Shown in pieces: positions 1 to 12,248 of a stretch of DNA of 64,000 bases (position 1 is the first letter of the stretch; each line of letters starts with the position of its first letter). Location: IMG/VR virus record IMGVR_UViG_3300050139_000358, positions 1 through 64,000 of that record. One strand, written 5' to 3'. The position numbers were made by a program, and so were the translations under genes. This stretch comes from a virus. Under the pieces are notes generated by a model. The model saw only the letters and a program-made list of their open reading frames with translations, did no database searches and had not been told where the DNA came from.

Positions 1-1185
1 GTGCTATCTGATACAAAACTAAAAAACTTAAAGCCACAAGATAAGCCTTTCAAGGTGGCAGACCGTGATGGTTTGTATGTCATGGTCTTGCCTTCAGGGT
101 CTATCTCCTTCCGGTACAACTATAAAATAAACGGGCGATATGAAACGCTGACCATTGGTAAGTACGGGAATATCTCGCTTGCCGAAGCGCGAGAGCTTCT
201 TGTGGAGGCGAAAAAATCAATTTCTACCGGAAGTTCGCCTGCGCGAGCGAAGGCCCGGGAAAAGAAAAAGCTAGTTAAGGCTGATACTTTTGGCGAATGG
301 GCTGAAACGTGGCTGACCAAGTACGTGATGGCAGAATCAACGCGCGATATGAAGCGGTCTGGGTATGAGCGTGATCTAAAGCCATTCGCGAAGTTGAAGA
401 TGTCTGAATTTACGGATACGGATTTGCGAGCGCTATGCGAAAAGATTGTGGAGCGGGGCGCGCCTGCGACGGCAATTCATGTGCGAGAGATTGTGCAGGC
501 GGTATATCGCTATGCCGCCGATAAGGGGCATAAGTACCAAAACCCAGCCGACACCATAAAACCAACCTCGATTGCTATTTTCAAGCCTCGCGAGCGAGCG
601 CTTTCACCTGAAGAGGTGGGTATTCTTTTTGAGTATCTGGATAAGGAACCGTGCTTCCCCAGTATCAAGATGGCGGTCAAACTGCTGCTTCTAACCATGC
701 TTCGAAAATCAGAGTTGATTGAGGCAACGTGGGACGAGATCAATTTTACGAATGCGCTGTGGACGATACCGGCAAGCAGAATGAAGATGTCGAAGGCGCA
801 CAATATCTATCTGTCTAGTCAGGCGATAGACATTCTCACGGCGCTGAAAATGTGTGCCGGTGGGTCAAAGTATGTCTTGCCGGGGCGATACGACGCTGAC
901 CTTACGATGAGCAAAGCGACTCTAAATAGAACAATGACGCTTGCATGTGATGCAGCCCAAAATGCAGGGCGGGCACTAGAGCATTGTGGCCCGCATGATC
1001 TGCGTAGAACGGCATCAACGATGCTGCATGAGTCCGGCTACAATTCAGACTGGATAGAGAAGTGCTTGGCGCATGAGCAGAAGGGCGTGCGTGCCGTGTA
1101 TAACAAAGCCGAATATGCAGAACAACGCCGCGCCATGCTTCAGGATTGGGCGAATATGGTTGACCAATTCACTAAGCGGCCCTGA
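1..1185 (+). CDS. int: Tyrosine recombinase integrase (P4-type, DUF4102 N-terminus)
   Basis: Site-specific integrase that would insert and excise the phage at the host attachment site. The 394 residues have the expected order: an N-terminal DUF4102 arm-binding domain (about 1-85), a core-binding domain (about 95-180) and a C-terminal catalytic domain. The catalytic set is visible: Arg235 (LTMLRKSEL), His332/Arg335 (HDLRR), His358 (LAHE) and the nucleophile Tyr367. The protein starts with GTG at base 1; the N-terminus MLSDTKLKNLKP is typical for the family, so it is probably complete, although the ribosome site lies outside the window. Its 3' end overlaps the convergent AlpA-like gene by 14 bp. 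Such integrases usually lie next to their attachment site, so att is probably just left of the window. Confidence 0.95.
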   Translation: MLSDTKLKNLKPQDKPFKVADRDGLYVMVLPSGSISFRYNYKINGRYETLTIGKYGNISLAEARELLVEAKKSISTGSSPARAKAREKKKLVKADTFGEWAETWLTKYVMAESTRDMKRSGYERDLKPFAKLKMSEFTDTDLRALCEKIVERGAPATAIHVREIVQAVYRYAADKGHKYQNPADTIKPTSIAIFKPRERALSPEEVGILFEYLDKEPCFPSIKMAVKLLLLTMLRKSELIEATWDEINFTNALWTIPASRMKMSKAHNIYLSSQAIDILTALKMCAGGSKYVLPGRYDADLTMSKATLNRTMTLACDAAQNAGRALEHCGPHDLRRTASTMLHESGYNSDWIEKCLAHEQKGVRAVYNKAEYAEQRRAMLQDWANMVDQFTKRP

Positions 1186-1546: not shown

Positions 1547-2590
1547 TCAAAATTCATTCCTTTCAGTAAAAATCCTCGATCTTGTTGTTCCTGTGTGGTT
1601 GAGCATCGCTCGGTACGAGCGTAGTGCGTCGGTTCGGTCGCGTCCGCCTGATTCATGCTGACGTAGCCGCTGGTGGTATCGGCTGCGTATGTAGTGGCCG
1701 GCTGATATGTGCTCGGGCCAGACGACATAACCAAGAAACGGGATCCCCGCGCTGGCGGGCGCAAGCCGTATTTTGTGCGGATGGATGGTTAATCCGTAGC
1801 TGGCCAGCTTGACGGTGATCTGCTCGCAAATTGTTTGCAGCTCTTCGCGTGACTCACCCATGATCGCCATGTCATCCACGTAGCGGATGTACCTTTTCAC
1901 TCGCAGCGTTTCTTTAACCCAGTGGTCAAAGTCATTCAAGAATATGTTGGCGAATAGCTGCGAAGAAAGGTTGCCGATGGGCATTCCTTTGGCGGACACC
2001 TGCCGGTACAGGGTATTTTCACCAAACAAGTGATCGTAGCTATCGTCTGTTTTGAATGAGTCGATCAGATTGACCAGAAGCACGCGCAGATCATGATCTC
2101 CGATGTAGCGCAATACCCGCTCTTTGAGCATGGCATGATTGACAGAGTAGAAATACTTGCTGATGTCGAGTTGCAATACCCAAGTTGCTTTGCTGCTACG
2201 TGCGAATTGCGCCAGTCTTCGGATTGCGGCATGGGTTCCGCGACCGGGAAGATTGCCGAAAGTATCGTGAATGAAGCGTGGTTGCCAGATCGGCAGCATG
2301 TACCGGTACAGCATCCAGTGAATGATGCGGTCTTTCATCGGAGCATCAACAACATCGCGCCACTTCTTTTCGCGGACGACGAAAGTTTTGTATGGCCCGA
2401 AGGTGTAGTTACGCTCACGCAGTCGTTTCTGGATGGTAATTAGGTGACGCAGCGGGTCGGTAGAAAAGCGCTGAATGCGCAGATTGTGCGATTTATCCTT
2501 GCGAGTGTTCAGCCAGCAGGTGAATAGATTTGGTAGGCTGGTTAGGTGAAAAAATTCACTGCCGCATTCCACTGCGCCGCCCGTAGGCAT
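1547..2590 (-). CDS. DGR reverse transcriptase
   Basis: Group-II-intron-like reverse transcriptase of a diversity-generating retroelement. It copies the template-repeat RNA with errors at adenines, and the cDNA replaces the variable repeat of the target gene. Visible motifs: DAPMKDRIIHW and IHDTFGNLPGRGTH (early fingers), LDISKYF (motif A, 2150-2170), a DGR-type motif B GMPIGNLSSQLFANIFLN, and the catalytic YVDD (1871-1882). The commoner DGR motif is IGNLTSQ; here it is IGNLSSQ. The frame stays open upstream to 2851, right through the TR, but recognisable RT sequence begins only near LTSLPNLFTCWLN. I place the start at ATG 2590 (347 aa), with GTG 2572 as an alternative; neither has a strong ribosome site. 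Confidence 0.93.
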   Translation of the reverse strand: MPTGGAVECGSEFFHLTSLPNLFTCWLNTRKDKSHNLRIQRFSTDPLRHLITIQKRLRERNYTFGPYKTFVVREKKWRDVVDAPMKDRIIHWMLYRYMLPIWQPRFIHDTFGNLPGRGTHAAIRRLAQFARSSKATWVLQLDISKYFYSVNHAMLKERVLRYIGDHDLRVLLVNLIDSFKTDDSYDHLFGENTLYRQVSAKGMPIGNLSSQLFANIFLNDFDHWVKETLRVKRYIRYVDDMAIMGESREELQTICEQITVKLASYGLTIHPHKIRLAPASAGIPFLGYVVWPEHISAGHYIRSRYHQRLRQHESGGRDRTDALRSYRAMLNHTGTTRSRIFTERNEF

Positions 2591-2710
2591 CGCAGCGGTT
2601 TTCGGTTGGGCATGTTGCCGAGCTTTTGGAACTTGCGCTCCGGGAGATTTTCGACCAAGAGTTGACCTTCCGTGGGTATCCCCAGCGTCTAGGCCGTTTA
2701 TCCTTGGGTC

Positions 2711-2824
2711 AGCGGAAGCCGACGTTGTCGTTGCGATTCTCGGGGTTGTCGTTGTTGAGATTGAACACACCGGCATTCGAGTTGGAGTTCCAGTAGCCGC
2801 CCCGTATGAGCGCATTGCCAGACC
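2711..2824 (-). repeat. DGR template repeat (TR)
   Basis: This 114-bp segment aligns without gaps to 3771-3884 in the target gene. There are 20 mismatches, and every one falls on an adenine of the TR sense (minus) strand; 20 of its 28 adenines are altered in the VR. TR codons at variable positions are AAC/AAT (Asn), the usual DGR design because AAY can mutate to many residues. It lies between the accessory gene and the RT, the standard TR position. It still reads as a copy of the lectin-type C-terminus (ALIRGGYW to VGFR) and ends in TGA. Confidence 0.95.
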
Positions 2825-2847
2825 TTTCAGAAAATCCCCCCCATTGT

Positions 2848-3696
2848 TCATGGCTGCACTCCTTGTGAGCGAATGAGCCCGCCAACGAGACGACCAAGTT
2901 CAACGGCTAGACCCGCTCTGTGCTCAAAGTTGAGCGCAAGTATTCCTAGCCTTTGAGCCTGTGCGAGATAGTGCTTGAGCAGGTCAATATCGGCGGAGAG
3001 AGACTTGAGTAGCTTCTGTTTATTGTCCTCAAGGCCGTATGCCATAACCCCGCGCATGATTCGACCGATGCAGATGCGTAGATTTTCGCCATAGGTGGTG
3101 CGCAAGTCGCGCGGCATCTTGATAATGTCTTGCAGGAGCTGCGTGTCCAGGTCTTGCGCCTTGGCCTTGAGCTGGAAACATGCGGCATCTGGGCTGGATA
3201 ATAGTTGGGTGGCAGCAGCCTTGTTCACTTCGCCGCGTTGCTTGAGGTCATCGATCACATCTTGGATGACTTTCGTGGAAACGGATTCCAGTACCGAATT
3301 GTTACCTGTCGGCTGGCTGGATACATAAACTGTGTGGCCGGTTGCCTGGTTGCCCAGCGCAACGACGTATGGAATGCCGAACTCTTCGACTACCGCCCAC
3401 AATCTGCGCTTGAAATTTCCGACCGGAAAGCCGATTCGAATATGCGGCTCGGTGGCGGCCCCGATGAGTTTGAGTTTGTACTTTTTCAGCGTTGCCAGCG
3501 CGTATGCCGTGCGGTCATAGCCATGGAGGAAATTACCGGATTGCACCAATATCAAGTGGCCGGCGTGTTTCTCTTCCAGCTTCTGCGCGATGGTCGCTAC
3601 CGGATCAGCCTGCCCGAGTCCAGCCTCAATTCCCTTGAAGGCGCTGATGCTGAACCTGGTCAGTTCGTCGTTTGTTGGTGTCGGTATTTCTTGCAT
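2848..3696 (-). CDS. DGR accessory protein: MutS-like N-terminal region fused to Avd-like four-helix domain
   Basis: The gene lies between the variable gene and the TR, where DGRs encode their accessory protein. Residues about 30-125 (ILVQSGNFLHGYDRTAYA, then a beta-rich stretch ending TGHTVYVS) resemble the MutS domain I-like module known as an alternative DGR accessory domain. Residues about 185-280 are helical and basic (LLQDIIKMPRDLRTTYGE, ICIGRIMRGVMAYG), fitting the Avd four-helix bundle that binds RT and template RNA. The open frame begins with GTG at 3726, but ATG 3696 is preceded by TAGGAAC and is preferred (282 aa). Domain assignments come from recognition only. Confidence 0.75.
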   Translation of the reverse strand: MQEIPTPTNDELTRFSISAFKGIEAGLGQADPVATIAQKLEEKHAGHLILVQSGNFLHGYDRTAYALATLKKYKLKLIGAATEPHIRIGFPVGNFKRRLWAVVEEFGIPYVVALGNQATGHTVYVSSQPTGNNSVLESVSTKVIQDVIDDLKQRGEVNKAAATQLLSSPDAACFQLKAKAQDLDTQLLQDIIKMPRDLRTTYGENLRICIGRIMRGVMAYGLEDNKQKLLKSLSADIDLLKHYLAQAQRLGILALNFEHRAGLAVELGRLVGGLIRSQGVQP

Positions 3697-3720
3697 GATG
3701 TTCCTAGTTAATTTAGCGAA

Positions 3721-3748
3721 GGCCACGGCTACGCCGCGACCCGTGACC
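3721..3748 (-). other. Hairpin just downstream of the DGR variable repeat
   Basis: An inverted repeat of 8 bp (GGTCACGG with CCGTGGCC, one G-T wobble) encloses a 12-nt GC-rich loop. It lies 22 bp past the 3' end of the VR, between the target stop codon and the accessory gene. DGRs of the Bordetella phage type carry a DNA hairpin shortly after the VR that promotes target recognition, so this is the candidate here. The loop is longer than the tetraloop of that model. Confidence 0.4.
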
Positions 3749-3753
3749 AGCGA

Positions 3754-4446
3754 TCAGAGACTCTTGGTGCAGCGGAAGCCGACGTAGTCGAGGCGATACT
3801 CGGGGACGTCGTAGCCGAGACGGAACACACCGGCATCCGAGCCGGAGCCCCAGCAGCCGCCCCGAATGAGCGCACCGCCAGACCAGTTCCGCTCTCCGTC
3901 AGGACGGTATCCCATGCCTTTTTCTTGCGACGGATATGGGGCGGTGGTAAGGCTTGGCGAGTCTGCCTTGATGATGGTGGTCAATCCAACGTCATTGCCC
4001 TGCACGTCGTCAAAAATCCACGAAAATACGTTGCCATTTAGGTCGCAAACCTTCTCGCCGTTCGATAGCGTCAACCAGCGGCGCTCCTTTGCATCGAGTG
4101 ATTGGAACGTGCCAGGCTGCGCGCTCGAAACATTCCCCTTGCGTATGCCACGGAACAGCTTTCCTTCGCCAGCTTTGCCCTTCGTCCAGTTGCAATCTTG
4201 CTGGGCGGCATTGAGCCTGATCGCCAGTTCCTGTTTTTCAGTGACGAGTTGGCCGCCAATGTCTGCGCACGCCGCTTTGGCCTCTTCAAAGCTAATTCGC
4301 ACCCACGGTGTACCATCCTCGGTGATAACGGCCTTCCCATCTCCCCCCTTGCTGCAGGCGAATTGCCCATACTGGAACGACGGAACCACGATGCCACTTG
4401 GCAGTGTCATTTCTGGGACGGTGATGAATTTATTCTCGGCTTGCAT
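3754..4446 (-). CDS. DGR target (variable) protein, FGE-sulfatase / C-type-lectin fold
   Basis: The 230-residue target protein of the DGR. The C-terminal half has formylglycine-generating-enzyme/CLec-type signatures: VCDLNGNVFSWIFDD, then ALIRGGCWGSGSDAGVF and a final YVGFRCTKSL. The variable repeat encodes the last 40 or so residues. Relative to the TR-encoded version, 12 residues differ, nearly all Asn to Gly, Asp, Arg, Tyr, Val or Leu. Upstream residues have two Cys and the pattern typical of phage DGR targets. ATG 4446 has GAGAGG six bases upstream; a further in-frame ATG at 4476 has a weaker site. It follows a 59-aa gene by two bases, so translation may be coupled. In other phages such proteins bind host-surface ligands; the ligand here is unknown. 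Confidence 0.92.
   Translation of the reverse strand: MQAENKFITVPEMTLPSGIVVPSFQYGQFACSKGGDGKAVITEDGTPWVRISFEEAKAACADIGGQLVTEKQELAIRLNAAQQDCNWTKGKAGEGKLFRGIRKGNVSSAQPGTFQSLDAKERRWLTLSNGEKVCDLNGNVFSWIFDDVQGNDVGLTTIIKADSPSLTTAPYPSQEKGMGYRPDGERNWSGGALIRGGCWGSGSDAGVFRLGYDVPEYRLDYVGFRCTKSL
3771..3884 (-). repeat. DGR variable repeat (VR)
   Basis: Partner of the TR at 2711-2824, forming the 3' end of the target gene. The last 15 bp (GCTTCCGCT region, 3771-3785) are identical to the TR and GC-rich, as expected for the initiation-of-mutagenic-homology end. Homology breaks off just beyond 3884, where the first non-adenine differences appear. Confidence 0.95.
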
Positions 4447-4448
4447 GG

Positions 4449-4628
4449 TTATCCTCTCGGTGATGTTGTTGGGCATTTCTCATTCGGTATGAAACTCTCG
4501 CAGCAATCTCCAAATCCAAAGTCAAATAGTCCGTAGGACTGGAAATCGCTAGGTTGTGCCGTGAATCGCTTGCACTCTTCCTTGCTCGGGCATTCTTTAT
4601 TCAGGCAAAGCGTTATATCGGCGCACAT
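4449..4628 (-). CDS. Small cysteine-rich protein, unknown, coupled to the DGR target gene
   Basis: A 59-residue frame starting MCADITLCLNKECPSKEE, with six Cys, an acidic and aromatic middle (YGLFDFGFGDCCESF) and no membrane segment. The Cys spacing (CLNKECPSKEEC) suggests metal binding or disulfides. ATG 4628 is preceded by GAGAAAGG and overlaps the end of the upstream gene by 16 bp; its TAA ends two bases before the DGR target ATG. This tight packing supports real coding and translational coupling. No function recognised. Confidence 0.7.
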   Translation of the reverse strand: MCADITLCLNKECPSKEECKRFTAQPSDFQSYGLFDFGFGDCCESFIPNEKCPTTSPRG

Positions 4629-9224: not shown

Positions 9225-12200
9225 TCAAGCCTGCTTGCGTTTGGTTTCTTTGATGGCTGCCATGTTTGCAAGGTTCGCGCGCACCAGCGCGGTCGCAAGC
9301 GGCGGGCATACCGAGTTGCCGCACATGCGCACCTGTGCGCTCTTGGTCAGCTTCAATCCTTGCTCTGGCTTGTCGCCGATGATGTAATTCTCTGGGAAGC
9401 CTTGAGCACGGAATAATTCGCGAGGTGCCAACATGCGCAGGCCGATGTCGGTGATCGCATATTCTTCACCGTGAACTGTGACGAGCCCGAATCGATCTTT
9501 AGCGGTGACGGTGTGATTTGGTTCGTGGAGAGATACGCCGTCTTGCTCATTGCCGTAATACTTGACTAGGAAAGCGCGCACCTCGGCGAAATGCGTCCCT
9601 TGAGCGCTGAGCGTATGTAATGGTTCATCGTCAGGTTGCCCGATGTTGTCGCCACGCATCTTGACCAAGTTGCTGGTAACGATGCCGTGGATATTGCCTG
9701 TGCTATCTCTGGCAGGGTTGCCGCCGGCGGTAATCGTGTGGATAGGGTCGCTTAGTTCGCTACCAACCGAACCAGACCTGAACTTTGTTAGATGCGCAGA
9801 TACCAGCGAATTGTGATCGGTGCTGGTGACGGTATGTAATGGCTCGTCATGCAGATCGTGACCAACTACGCCGCCATAGTGCTTTGCCATGAAGGCAGAT
9901 ACCAATGCGTGCCGATTCTCTGTGGTTTGTGTCTGCAACGGCTCATCCATGCGGATACCGCGCACGTCTCCTGGGTATTTATCCCCGTAATAGGTGGAGA
10001 TTATGGGAGCAACAAGGGCATGTTTTGCGCCGCCGGCAACTACAGTCCCGAGTGGTTTATCCAAGCCTGGTGCGCGCGGAGATTGCCCGGCACGTTCTCC
10101 GTACCCAGTCTGAATCAGGGTTGGTGCAATCAATGCGAAGTGACCACCTTTGACCTGTGCGCATTGAGTACGAAGCGGCTCATCTGCGGCCATATTTCGC
10201 TGGTTGGAACCATTAGCATGTTCGGTGATGAATGGAGTTACCAATCCATATCCGCCGCTTGCCGTGATCGTTGGCAAAGGTTCCGCCATGCTCCGGTGTC
10301 CTTTACCCCAGCGTTGCGCGGCTCCCGGCTTGCCTTCTCCATGCGCGGCGGTAACGATAAATGGTTCCGCTGCGTTCACTACATAGCGCATGATTCCCTT
10401 TGCTACGCGGCGCAATGTGTTATCTGCGAGAGGGCGAATAACGCCGAGTGCGCGAGCCTCTTCCTTGCTCAGAAAGATAGATGGACATGGAATTGACCAG
10501 TCAATGCACTCTGCGGCAGTACGCCAAGGCTTGAGCTTCCCATTCTTTACGTTATCCTTCTTTGGGTCGCCATGTGTCGGCGTCGGCCAGACGATTGGCT
10601 GTCCGTCGCGACGTGCGATCAGGAATAAGCGCTTTCTGATGGTTGGAGCACCAAAGTCGCAGGCGCGTAGTTCTTTATGCTCAACTGTGTAGCCTTGGCG
10701 TTGAAGCGCATTGCGGAACGCATTGAACTCGCGCCCCTTGTTCTTTGGGCAAGGGCGCATATTTCCATCAGCGTCTTCGACCAGCGGCCCACAGGTTACA
10801 AACTCTTCGACATTTTCAAGCATGATGACGCGAGGTTTGCGAACCGCTGCCCAGCGCAGCGCCACCCAAGCCAGCCCGCGAATCTTCTTTTCGACCGGCT
10901 TGCCGCCCTTGGCTTTTGAAAAATGCTTGCAGTTGTGAACAATGATGCCTTCAACCACGTAGCTTTCATCTTCTTCAACGCCGATATTGAATACCTCTGC
11001 CGATTCGCCAACGTCCGACTGTTCTCGCACCGGACACCATTCGATTCCATTCTCAATGTACGTTTGTGCGTGTTCAGCGTGCACGTTATGCCGCCAGCGA
11101 ACTTTGAACAGGTCGCGCGCATTGACCTCACGTCCCTCAATAACGCTAGAATTAGGGCGGCAATAAACTGCGACCGTCTTACCCAGGCTATTGGCAAGTG
11201 CCTTTAGGCCGAATGCCAGAGATTTAGATACCGTGTGCGCTTCGACGAAATCCTCGAACTTGTGTCCGTCTGCGCTGAGATAGCCTTCCAGCAGCGCCTC
11301 ACGGGCACTTACCGAAAGACCAAGCGCCCAAGCCGGGACACCCTTTGCCTCAGCGCGATGACCAAAATGCTCCCGAAGCCATTCAACCAGTCCGCGATGA
11401 CTTGTGGTGAACTGGTACGCGGTGCGAGTTTGACGCTCGTGCCATGCAAGTTCATTTCCAACCGATCTGTCGCCGACTCGCGGCCAACGATTCAGCAAGT
11501 CTCGCAGGCGATCAACTTCATGCATTCCGCAGGTGATTACCAACTCGGCGCGCGTATCGGTCAGGCGTGTCCATCCGTCCCCAAGGTAACGCCCAGCAAG
11601 CCAAAGAAATTCATCGGTCAAGTCAATACCGCGACCCGCGACACTTGGTGCGACCGATGCCGGAAACGAATGCGGTGCTGCCCAATATGTTCCCTTATCT
11701 ACTGCTGAGGCCGGAGTCCAAGTTTCAGGATGCAAGAAATGGTCGTAGGTTCGGCGATCATTGTTCCATACACGAAATTGTTCGCGCGTGTAGAACGGAT
11801 GTTCCTGACTGACTCGCAAGCCAGGGTGCCCATGACCGCGAATCTCGATCAGAGGCCGAACAGTCGAAGAGCATTCTGTAACTGCACGCCACCGGAGTTT
11901 GTGAGTCAATACCATGTCTCCGACGCGGATGCGCTCGATTGGCCTATAACCTTTGTCGGTCATAACCAGCGTGCCGGATGGAAAGCAATCTGGCGACAAC
12001 CATAGCAAGCCAATTTTACGGCCCGGCTCAACATCGCGCGGGTTGACCTCCCACACAGATTCGCAGTAATGGCGCGTCTGTGGGTGATTCGCTGAGTGCA
12101 TCGCGACCGCTTCCGGGTCGTGGTTGATCGCCACGTCAACATGACGCCCAAGTGCAATTTCAATCCCGGTTGACGCTCCGCCACCGCCGGCGAAGTTGTC

Positions 12201-12248
12201 GATGATGATTTCTTCGTTGATGTCGAGGATGAGTTGTGGCGTTATCAT
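9225..12248 (-). CDS. C5-cytosine DNA methyltransferase interrupted by an intein
   Basis: A 1007-residue precursor; after removal of the 352-aa intein (residues 88-439) a 655-aa DNA cytosine methyltransferase remains. Motif I is IIDNFAGGGGASTG, motif VI ENVEEF, motif VIII RKRLFLIARRDG and motif X MCGNSVCPPLATALV. Motif IV is SPD|CKHFSKAKGG, with the intein at the bar, so the catalytic Cys (440 in the precursor) is also the splicing +1 residue. Residues about 650-900 carry roughly seven imperfect repeats of a DEPLHTVT...ALV unit, seen in related phage methyltransferases. It probably protects phage DNA from host restriction. The start overlaps the exonuclease stop. Confidence 0.95.
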   Translation of the reverse strand: MITPQLILDINEEIIIDNFAGGGGASTGIEIALGRHVDVAINHDPEAVAMHSANHPQTRHYCESVWEVNPRDVEPGRKIGLLWLSPDCFPSGTLVMTDKGYRPIERIRVGDMVLTHKLRWRAVTECSSTVRPLIEIRGHGHPGLRVSQEHPFYTREQFRVWNNDRRTYDHFLHPETWTPASAVDKGTYWAAPHSFPASVAPSVAGRGIDLTDEFLWLAGRYLGDGWTRLTDTRAELVITCGMHEVDRLRDLLNRWPRVGDRSVGNELAWHERQTRTAYQFTTSHRGLVEWLREHFGHRAEAKGVPAWALGLSVSAREALLEGYLSADGHKFEDFVEAHTVSKSLAFGLKALANSLGKTVAVYCRPNSSVIEGREVNARDLFKVRWRHNVHAEHAQTYIENGIEWCPVREQSDVGESAEVFNIGVEEDESYVVEGIIVHNCKHFSKAKGGKPVEKKIRGLAWVALRWAAVRKPRVIMLENVEEFVTCGPLVEDADGNMRPCPKNKGREFNAFRNALQRQGYTVEHKELRACDFGAPTIRKRLFLIARRDGQPIVWPTPTHGDPKKDNVKNGKLKPWRTAAECIDWSIPCPSIFLSKEEARALGVIRPLADNTLRRVAKGIMRYVVNAAEPFIVTAAHGEGKPGAAQRWGKGHRSMAEPLPTITASGGYGLVTPFITEHANGSNQRNMAADEPLRTQCAQVKGGHFALIAPTLIQTGYGERAGQSPRAPGLDKPLGTVVAGGAKHALVAPIISTYYGDKYPGDVRGIRMDEPLQTQTTENRHALVSAFMAKHYGGVVGHDLHDEPLHTVTSTDHNSLVSAHLTKFRSGSVGSELSDPIHTITAGGNPARDSTGNIHGIVTSNLVKMRGDNIGQPDDEPLHTLSAQGTHFAEVRAFLVKYYGNEQDGVSLHEPNHTVTAKDRFGLVTVHGEEYAITDIGLRMLAPRELFRAQGFPENYIIGDKPEQGLKLTKSAQVRMCGNSVCPPLATALVRANLANMAAIKETKRKQA
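10932..11987 (-). mobile_element. Intein with LAGLIDADG homing endonuclease
   Basis: 352 residues in frame within the methyltransferase. Splicing block A is CFPSGTLVMTDKGYRPIERI with nucleophile Cys1; block B is RVSQEHPFYTRE (His present); block F is VFNIGVEEDESYVVEG; block G is IIVHN followed by Cys+1. Both dodecapeptide motifs of a LAGLIDADG endonuclease are visible: WLAGRYLGDGW and LLEGYLSADGH, each with its acidic residue. Both splicing and homing therefore look intact. Insertion at the catalytic Cys is typical of inteins, which favour the most conserved site of the host protein. Confidence 0.95.

Follow-up and report, generated by a model that had tools for sequence, protein, structure and literature searches.

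Few known natural systems diversify proteins as strongly as DGRs (diversity-generating retroelements), cassettes for targeted hypermutation that pair a template repeat (TR) with a variable repeat (VR). Near one end of the window (the whole stretch of viral DNA analysed here, 64,000 nt long, positions 1 to 64,000 of IMG/VR record IMGVR_UViG_3300050139_000358), a TR/VR repeat pair lies beside an RT gene, and the TR falls within the RT reading frame. This locus raises two questions: does the pair belong to a working DGR, and can one RNA be both the message for the RT and the template that the RT copies?

The repeat pair and the genes around it

The initial annotation had described an active-looking DGR on the grounds that TR and VR align over 114 bp without gaps and differ only at adenines, a pattern that it did not attribute to random divergence. 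Our realignment reproduces this description (Table 1): read on the sense (minus) strand, all 20 mismatches are at an A of the TR, with 20 of the 28 template A's altered (12 A>G, six A>T and two A>C), and the VR alters 12 residues of the target (201, 208, 210, 212, 214, 219, 221, 222, 224, 227, 229 and 231). The hypergeometric probability that all 20 mismatches fall on A is 3.2e-16, and random divergence is thus not the source of the pattern. The match can be extended to 122 bp if one 2-nt swap is allowed (TGACCC in the TR and TGCACC in the VR, at 2709–2708 and 3769–3768, respectively). Because the relatives that were read carry this swap too, at the 3′ ends of their TRs and in the sequence following their VRs, it looks like a fixed boundary of the IMH*/IMH type, at which the transferred segment would end, rather than noise. 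When the entire 71,458-bp record was scanned in a template-aware manner, no further VR of this TR appeared.

Judged from its sequence, the cassette is confirmed as a complete phage DGR, with an FGE/C-type-lectin-like target, an accessory protein combining MutS domain I and Avd, and a DGR-type RT, encoded in this order on the minus strand with the VR at the 3′ end of the target gene. Together with the hairpin located 3′ of the VR, these neighbours uphold the DGR identity of the pair. The VR encodes the C-terminus of the target, for which an FGE-sulfatase profile match suggests a C-type-lectin-like fold. The RT carries the motifs PIGNLSSQ (IGxxxSQ) and RYVDD (YxDD), and matches RVT_1 and the phage RT family phrog_1423 (7e-100). 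Finally, it should be noted that a 1007-aa DNA methyltransferase encoded elsewhere in the window (9225–12248, minus strand) shows an apparent intein-like insert (SPDCFPSGTLVMTDKG ... VVEGIIVHNC), with methyltransferase matches on both sides.

Table 1. Features of the cassette and its surroundings (positions in the window unless indicated otherwise).
Feature	Position	Strand	Basis or remarks
Phage integrase beside the cassette (context)	1..1185	+	phrog_1, E 1e-81
RT reading frame, 434 aa; residues 1–97 from pre-TR, TR and spacer	1547..2851	-	ORF, motifs, profiles
Structured spacer, predicted to be translated	2569..2710	-	Covarying hairpins 2694-2665, 2641-2628, 2619-2609, 2598-2569
3′ strand of the putative TR-bracketing helix	2642..2652	-	Covariation; held-out loci; single-sequence fold
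GGTC, can pair with GACC (2710-2707) directly 3′ of TR	2653..2656	-	Invariant, without covariation support
TR	2711..2824	-	Inside the RT frame
5′ strand of the putative TR-bracketing helix	2830..2840	-	Covariation; held-out loci
ATGA in which the TGA stop of the accessory overlaps the RT ATG	2848..2851	-	Invariant in 28 aligned relatives
Accessory gene, 282 aa, probable MutS domain I fused to Avd	2848..3696	-	Start taken as ATG 3696; profile and fold matches
Shine-Dalgarno AAGGAG for RT	2859..2864	-	Sequence; motif of at least 4 nt in 40/43 loci
Hairpin 3′ of VR, 10-bp stem, GTA triloop	3720..3742	-	In 58/64 lineage VRs, 28–43 nt after VR
Target gene, 240 aa, FGE-sulfatase/C-type-lectin-like, VR at C-terminus	3754..4476	-	ORF; PF03781, E 7e-7; phrog_2889, phrog_9572
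VR	3771..3884	-	Gap-free match to TR over 114 bp; differs at 20 template A's only
Second DGR of the record (G000), outside the window	68568-71458 of the record (L004 6569-9459)		Target phrog_2889, plain Avd, TR2 70101-70206, RT2 from 70370

The accessory protein of the window gives weak matches to Avd models, with a bAvd score under the Pfam cut-off, and no MutS_I Pfam match was found in it. Among its relatives, bAvd is matched in 28 of 28 and MutS_I (PF01624) in 11 of 28 (best MutS_I E-value of 4e-4). In the AlphaFold model, residues 27–130 adopt a MutS-domain-I fold (Z 12–13) and residues 165–281 an Avd fold (Z 14–15 to the Avd chains of the BPP-1 DGR ribonucleoprotein and to 4dwl); searches of PDB sequences with the accessory alignments returned marginal matches only, none of them to MutS or Avd. 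Profiles of the relatives and predicted folds together identify the accessory as a probable fusion of MutS domain I to Avd. The family also has a G-x-F-L-H at a spot that seems, by eye only, comparable to that of the Phe-x-Glu mismatch motif of MutS.

In the lineage, the stem downstream of the VR is 6–14 bp long and its loops are GTA (19), GTAA (11), GAA (six), GCA (six), GTGA (four), GTCA (four) and others. The commonest are GNA triloops, 31 in number and with few exceptions set in a GC-GNA-GC core; the tetraloops GTAA, GTGA and GTCA account for 19. The published consensus for phage DGR hairpins has a 4-nt GRNA loop (PMC3240598), as in BPP-1, and the GTA loop of the window departs from it.

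Activity in the lineage

We compared the cassette with 40 viral loci with RT relatives and with 13 bacterial contigs sharing its layout, all labelled betaproteobacterial. The initial annotation had expected that relatives would vary at template A's and not elsewhere. Indeed, over 70 distinct TR/VR pairs of the lineage, 1055 of 1763 template A's are altered (601 to G, 303 to T and 151 to C), compared with 12 of 6217 other sites. The window and L009 have identical TRs, and their VRs differ at 19 sites, all of them A. Where VRs of the closest group differ at sites that are not A in both TRs, the TRs almost always carry the matching change, as expected if TR overwrites VR. Moreover, in the phages L011 and L012, which share one TR and an RT identical across 600 nt, one of the VRs shows 15 differing sites, each of them a template A. 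Because of this last pair the lineage appears to be, or to have been until recently, active, with strong but indirect support, and the description of the locus as active-looking is sustained. We consider the window cassette to be a real, probably active DGR.

Could the present copy nevertheless be dead, with its TR/VR differences a fossil of past activity? The second cassette of the same record does have a frameshifted VR, which lends this reading some weight. In the window cassette, however, the RT, accessory and target frames and the RT motifs are intact, its closest relatives share the same TR but carry different VRs, and the L011/L012 differences are confined to template A's; we therefore regard a dead copy as unlikely.

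Members of the lineage come from betaproteobacterial genomes, with Thauera butanivorans NBRC 103042 (L063) as a cultured carrier, and from metagenomic viruses. A comparison with 50,697 phage records yielded no match to the cassette at the DNA level; the 141 RT relatives among them all have less than 60% identity. One locus from Aromatoleum toluclasticum (L067, 4028 onward) has the same layout with two VRs and an RT frame interrupted after about 170 codons.

Template, spacer and RNA scaffold within the RT reading frame

Where the RT starts decides whether TR and spacer are translated. An in-frame ATG lies 27–33 nt upstream of the TR in the window and in 33 relatives, and a Shine-Dalgarno motif of at least 4 nt precedes it in the large majority of loci (Table 1), compared with 17% of control windows. 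The RT frame is free of stops across TR and spacer in 34 of 34 sequences, whereas the other two frames of the spacer contain 42 and 28 stops. The spacer occurs in six length classes, each divisible by 3, and the same holds for 138 of 140 gap runs. In the canonical lineage, to which the second cassette of the record belongs, only 32 of 232 spacer gaps are multiples of 3 and a conserved RT start lies 3′ of the spacer.

The same DGR could in principle start its RT 3′ of the spacer, in line with the annotation of BPP-1 brt, the open frame then being a by-product of base composition and of the coding of TR in the VR frame. The brt frame is itself open for 699 nt upstream of its annotated start (an equally long opening is present in three of 35 distant RTs), and we accordingly dropped the open frame as sole proof of translation through the TR. 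The window moreover offers an in-frame ATG 234 nt and a GTG 252 nt after the TR start, amino-acid selection in the spacer is weak (pN/pS 0.76), and the relatives L068 and L069, which lack a TR, start at the core. Against this stand the in-frame spacer gaps, the invariant ATGA with its Shine-Dalgarno motif, and six loci with no ATG, GTG or TTG at all from the TR end to +330, which together make a late start improbable. We thus retain the early start: in this lineage, TR and its folding scaffold appear to lie inside the gene of the enzyme that copies them, and therefore one RNA would serve as both message and template. As for L068 and L069 (around position 4001), these betaproteobacterial RT relatives have neither an upstream TR nor the N-terminal tail, the match beginning near the RT core, and their RT possibly works without a nearby template.

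What does the translated segment contribute to the protein? In the AlphaFold model, residues 1–97 of the RT have a pLDDT of about 20–45 and lack secondary structure, with the folded core beginning at residue 98; the tail encoded by TR and spacer is thus predicted to be disordered. Within the TR, selection is seen in the VR frame (pN/pS 0.46) and is absent from the RT frame (1.14), and in the spacer synonymous change is reduced (pS 0.37 compared with 0.64 in the core). Given these ratios, the lowered spacer pS and the predicted disorder, the tail seems to be kept translatable while its sequence is dictated by the RNA.

This RNA has a predicted conserved fold. RNAalifold on a sequence-only alignment proposed 58 pairs, 25 of them with changes on both sides, and 96.9% of cells are paired, compared with 88.1% in shuffles and 36–45% in slid controls, although the shuffle counts overstate the significance of the covariation because the relatives are not independent. 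The main helix of 11 bp joins 2840–2830, just 5′ of the TR, to 2652–2642 in the spacer, and so loops the TR out. It begins about 11 nt 3′ of the RT start codon, has a probability of 0.98–1.0 in the window sequence alone, and is kept in eight held-out loci (74–89% identical to the training set), with 95.5% paired and 19 both-side changes. The adjoining GACC/GGTC pairs are invariant and have a low probability when the window sequence is folded alone. Rfam at gathering thresholds gave no match in the window.

An equivalent covarying pre-TR × spacer helix of 13 bp is found in the canonical lineage (94.7% paired, 49 both-side changes; A5 alignment of L004 8030–8380 and relatives), which suggests that bracketing of the template by a helix is general. 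BPP-1 has an 8-bp pre-TR × spacer complementarity at a similar spacer offset. In BPP-1, the structured spacer recruits RT–Avd and an upstream motif ends reverse transcription (PMC12875486); by analogy, the bracketing helix is a natural candidate for joining these two functions.

Proposed mechanism and relation to known DGRs

We hold with high confidence that the locus is a phage DGR that functions and is nested, TR and structured spacer lying inside the RT gene. An ordinary duplication beside an RT from a retron or defence system is practically untenable: like RTs in general, this one does match profiles of group II and defence RTs, but it does not reach the curated cut-off of any other NCBI RT family and it has the phrog_1423 match; the TR/VR pair and the Avd partner settle its identity, while a chance repeat or biased duplication is ruled out by the confinement of all mismatches to A (P ~3e-16) and by the same pattern in 70 pairs.

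In BPP-1, RT–Avd copies the TR-RNA with errors at A, and the hairpin helps the cDNA to replace the VR (PMC12875486, PMC3240598). By analogy, we infer mutagenic retrohoming from TR to VR in the window cassette. Target, MutS_I–Avd accessory and RT would be expressed from one minus-strand operon, with the RT translated from the ATG of the ATGA overlap and with TR and structured spacer read as its first ~97 residues, a disordered tail. The same RNA would fold so that the 11-bp helix loops out the TR, which the RT with its accessory would copy from the 3′ end, with random insertion opposite A; the helix would determine where cDNA synthesis begins and ends. The cDNA would then replace the VR beside the downstream hairpin and diversify the lectin-like face of the target. 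Specific to this lineage, any RT message would carry the TR, so that the RT could use the mRNA that encodes it as template, in competition with translation, and the mismatched cDNA/VR duplex may be a substrate of the MutS_I domain. We may go further and propose, tentatively and at less than even odds, a self-templating messenger: the RT mRNA being the mutagenesis template, assembly of RT and MutS–Avd would block ribosome entry, because the bracketing helix starts so close to the RT start codon, and would form a negative-feedback switch between enzyme and template.

How does this cassette compare with known systems? With the BPP-1 DGR (mtd/avd/TR/brt; NC_005357) it shares the order target–Avd–TR–RT on one strand, A-specific TR/VR differences, a hairpin after the VR and a structured spacer after the TR (PMC12875486). 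In BPP-1 the Avd is plain and the RT is annotated to start 3′ of the spacer, whereas in the window Avd appears fused to MutS_I and the RT start precedes the TR. MSL (MutS-like, PF01624), with which the accessory shares MutS domain I, has been named as a DGR accessory (Wu et al., 2018, cited by PMC10053308). Overlap of TR and RT ORF has been described as a structural class, the arrangement being held irrelevant (PMC3521204). The window cassette shows the layout of DiGReF group 3, defined by a TR that overlaps either end of the RT ORF; here it is the 5′ part that is overlapped. Unlike that annotation class, the present lineage combines conserved nesting with start signals, in-frame gaps and a covarying fold, and this conservation argues against an irrelevant arrangement, for this lineage. 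MutS-like accessories and TR/RT overlap are thus already known, and the parts are known in kind. What we would report, with caution, as new is the lineage-wide nesting of the template and a covarying scaffold in the RT gene, and the template-bracketing helix.

The second DGR of the record likewise has Avd, TR2 and RT2, and its lineage the covarying pre-TR × spacer helix, but it is canonical, with a plain Avd, a non-coding spacer and an RT start after the spacer. Its VR2 (69567–69625) is 47 bp shorter than TR2; since this is not a multiple of 3, the end of its target is frameshifted. In all seven relatives checked VR2 is full-length and in frame, and the frameshifted VR2 is either a real aberrant product or an assembly artefact. 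Both DGR types also occur in contigs of the same genome or metagenome, paired by source name (L034/L148, L009/L137 and L008/L140), and their joint carriage may be common.

In this lineage one RNA would hold three layers of information: codons for the VR frame, an RNA scaffold and the N-terminus of the RT. Comparative sequence alone locates a template-bracketing helix in two DGR lineages, and this helix gives a testable rule for where the template RNA starts and ends. The MutS_I–Avd fusion poses the question of whether a mismatch-recognition fold aids the survival of mutated cDNA or the finding of the target. As to the nested layout, it offers a compact single-transcript arrangement and possibly autoregulation.
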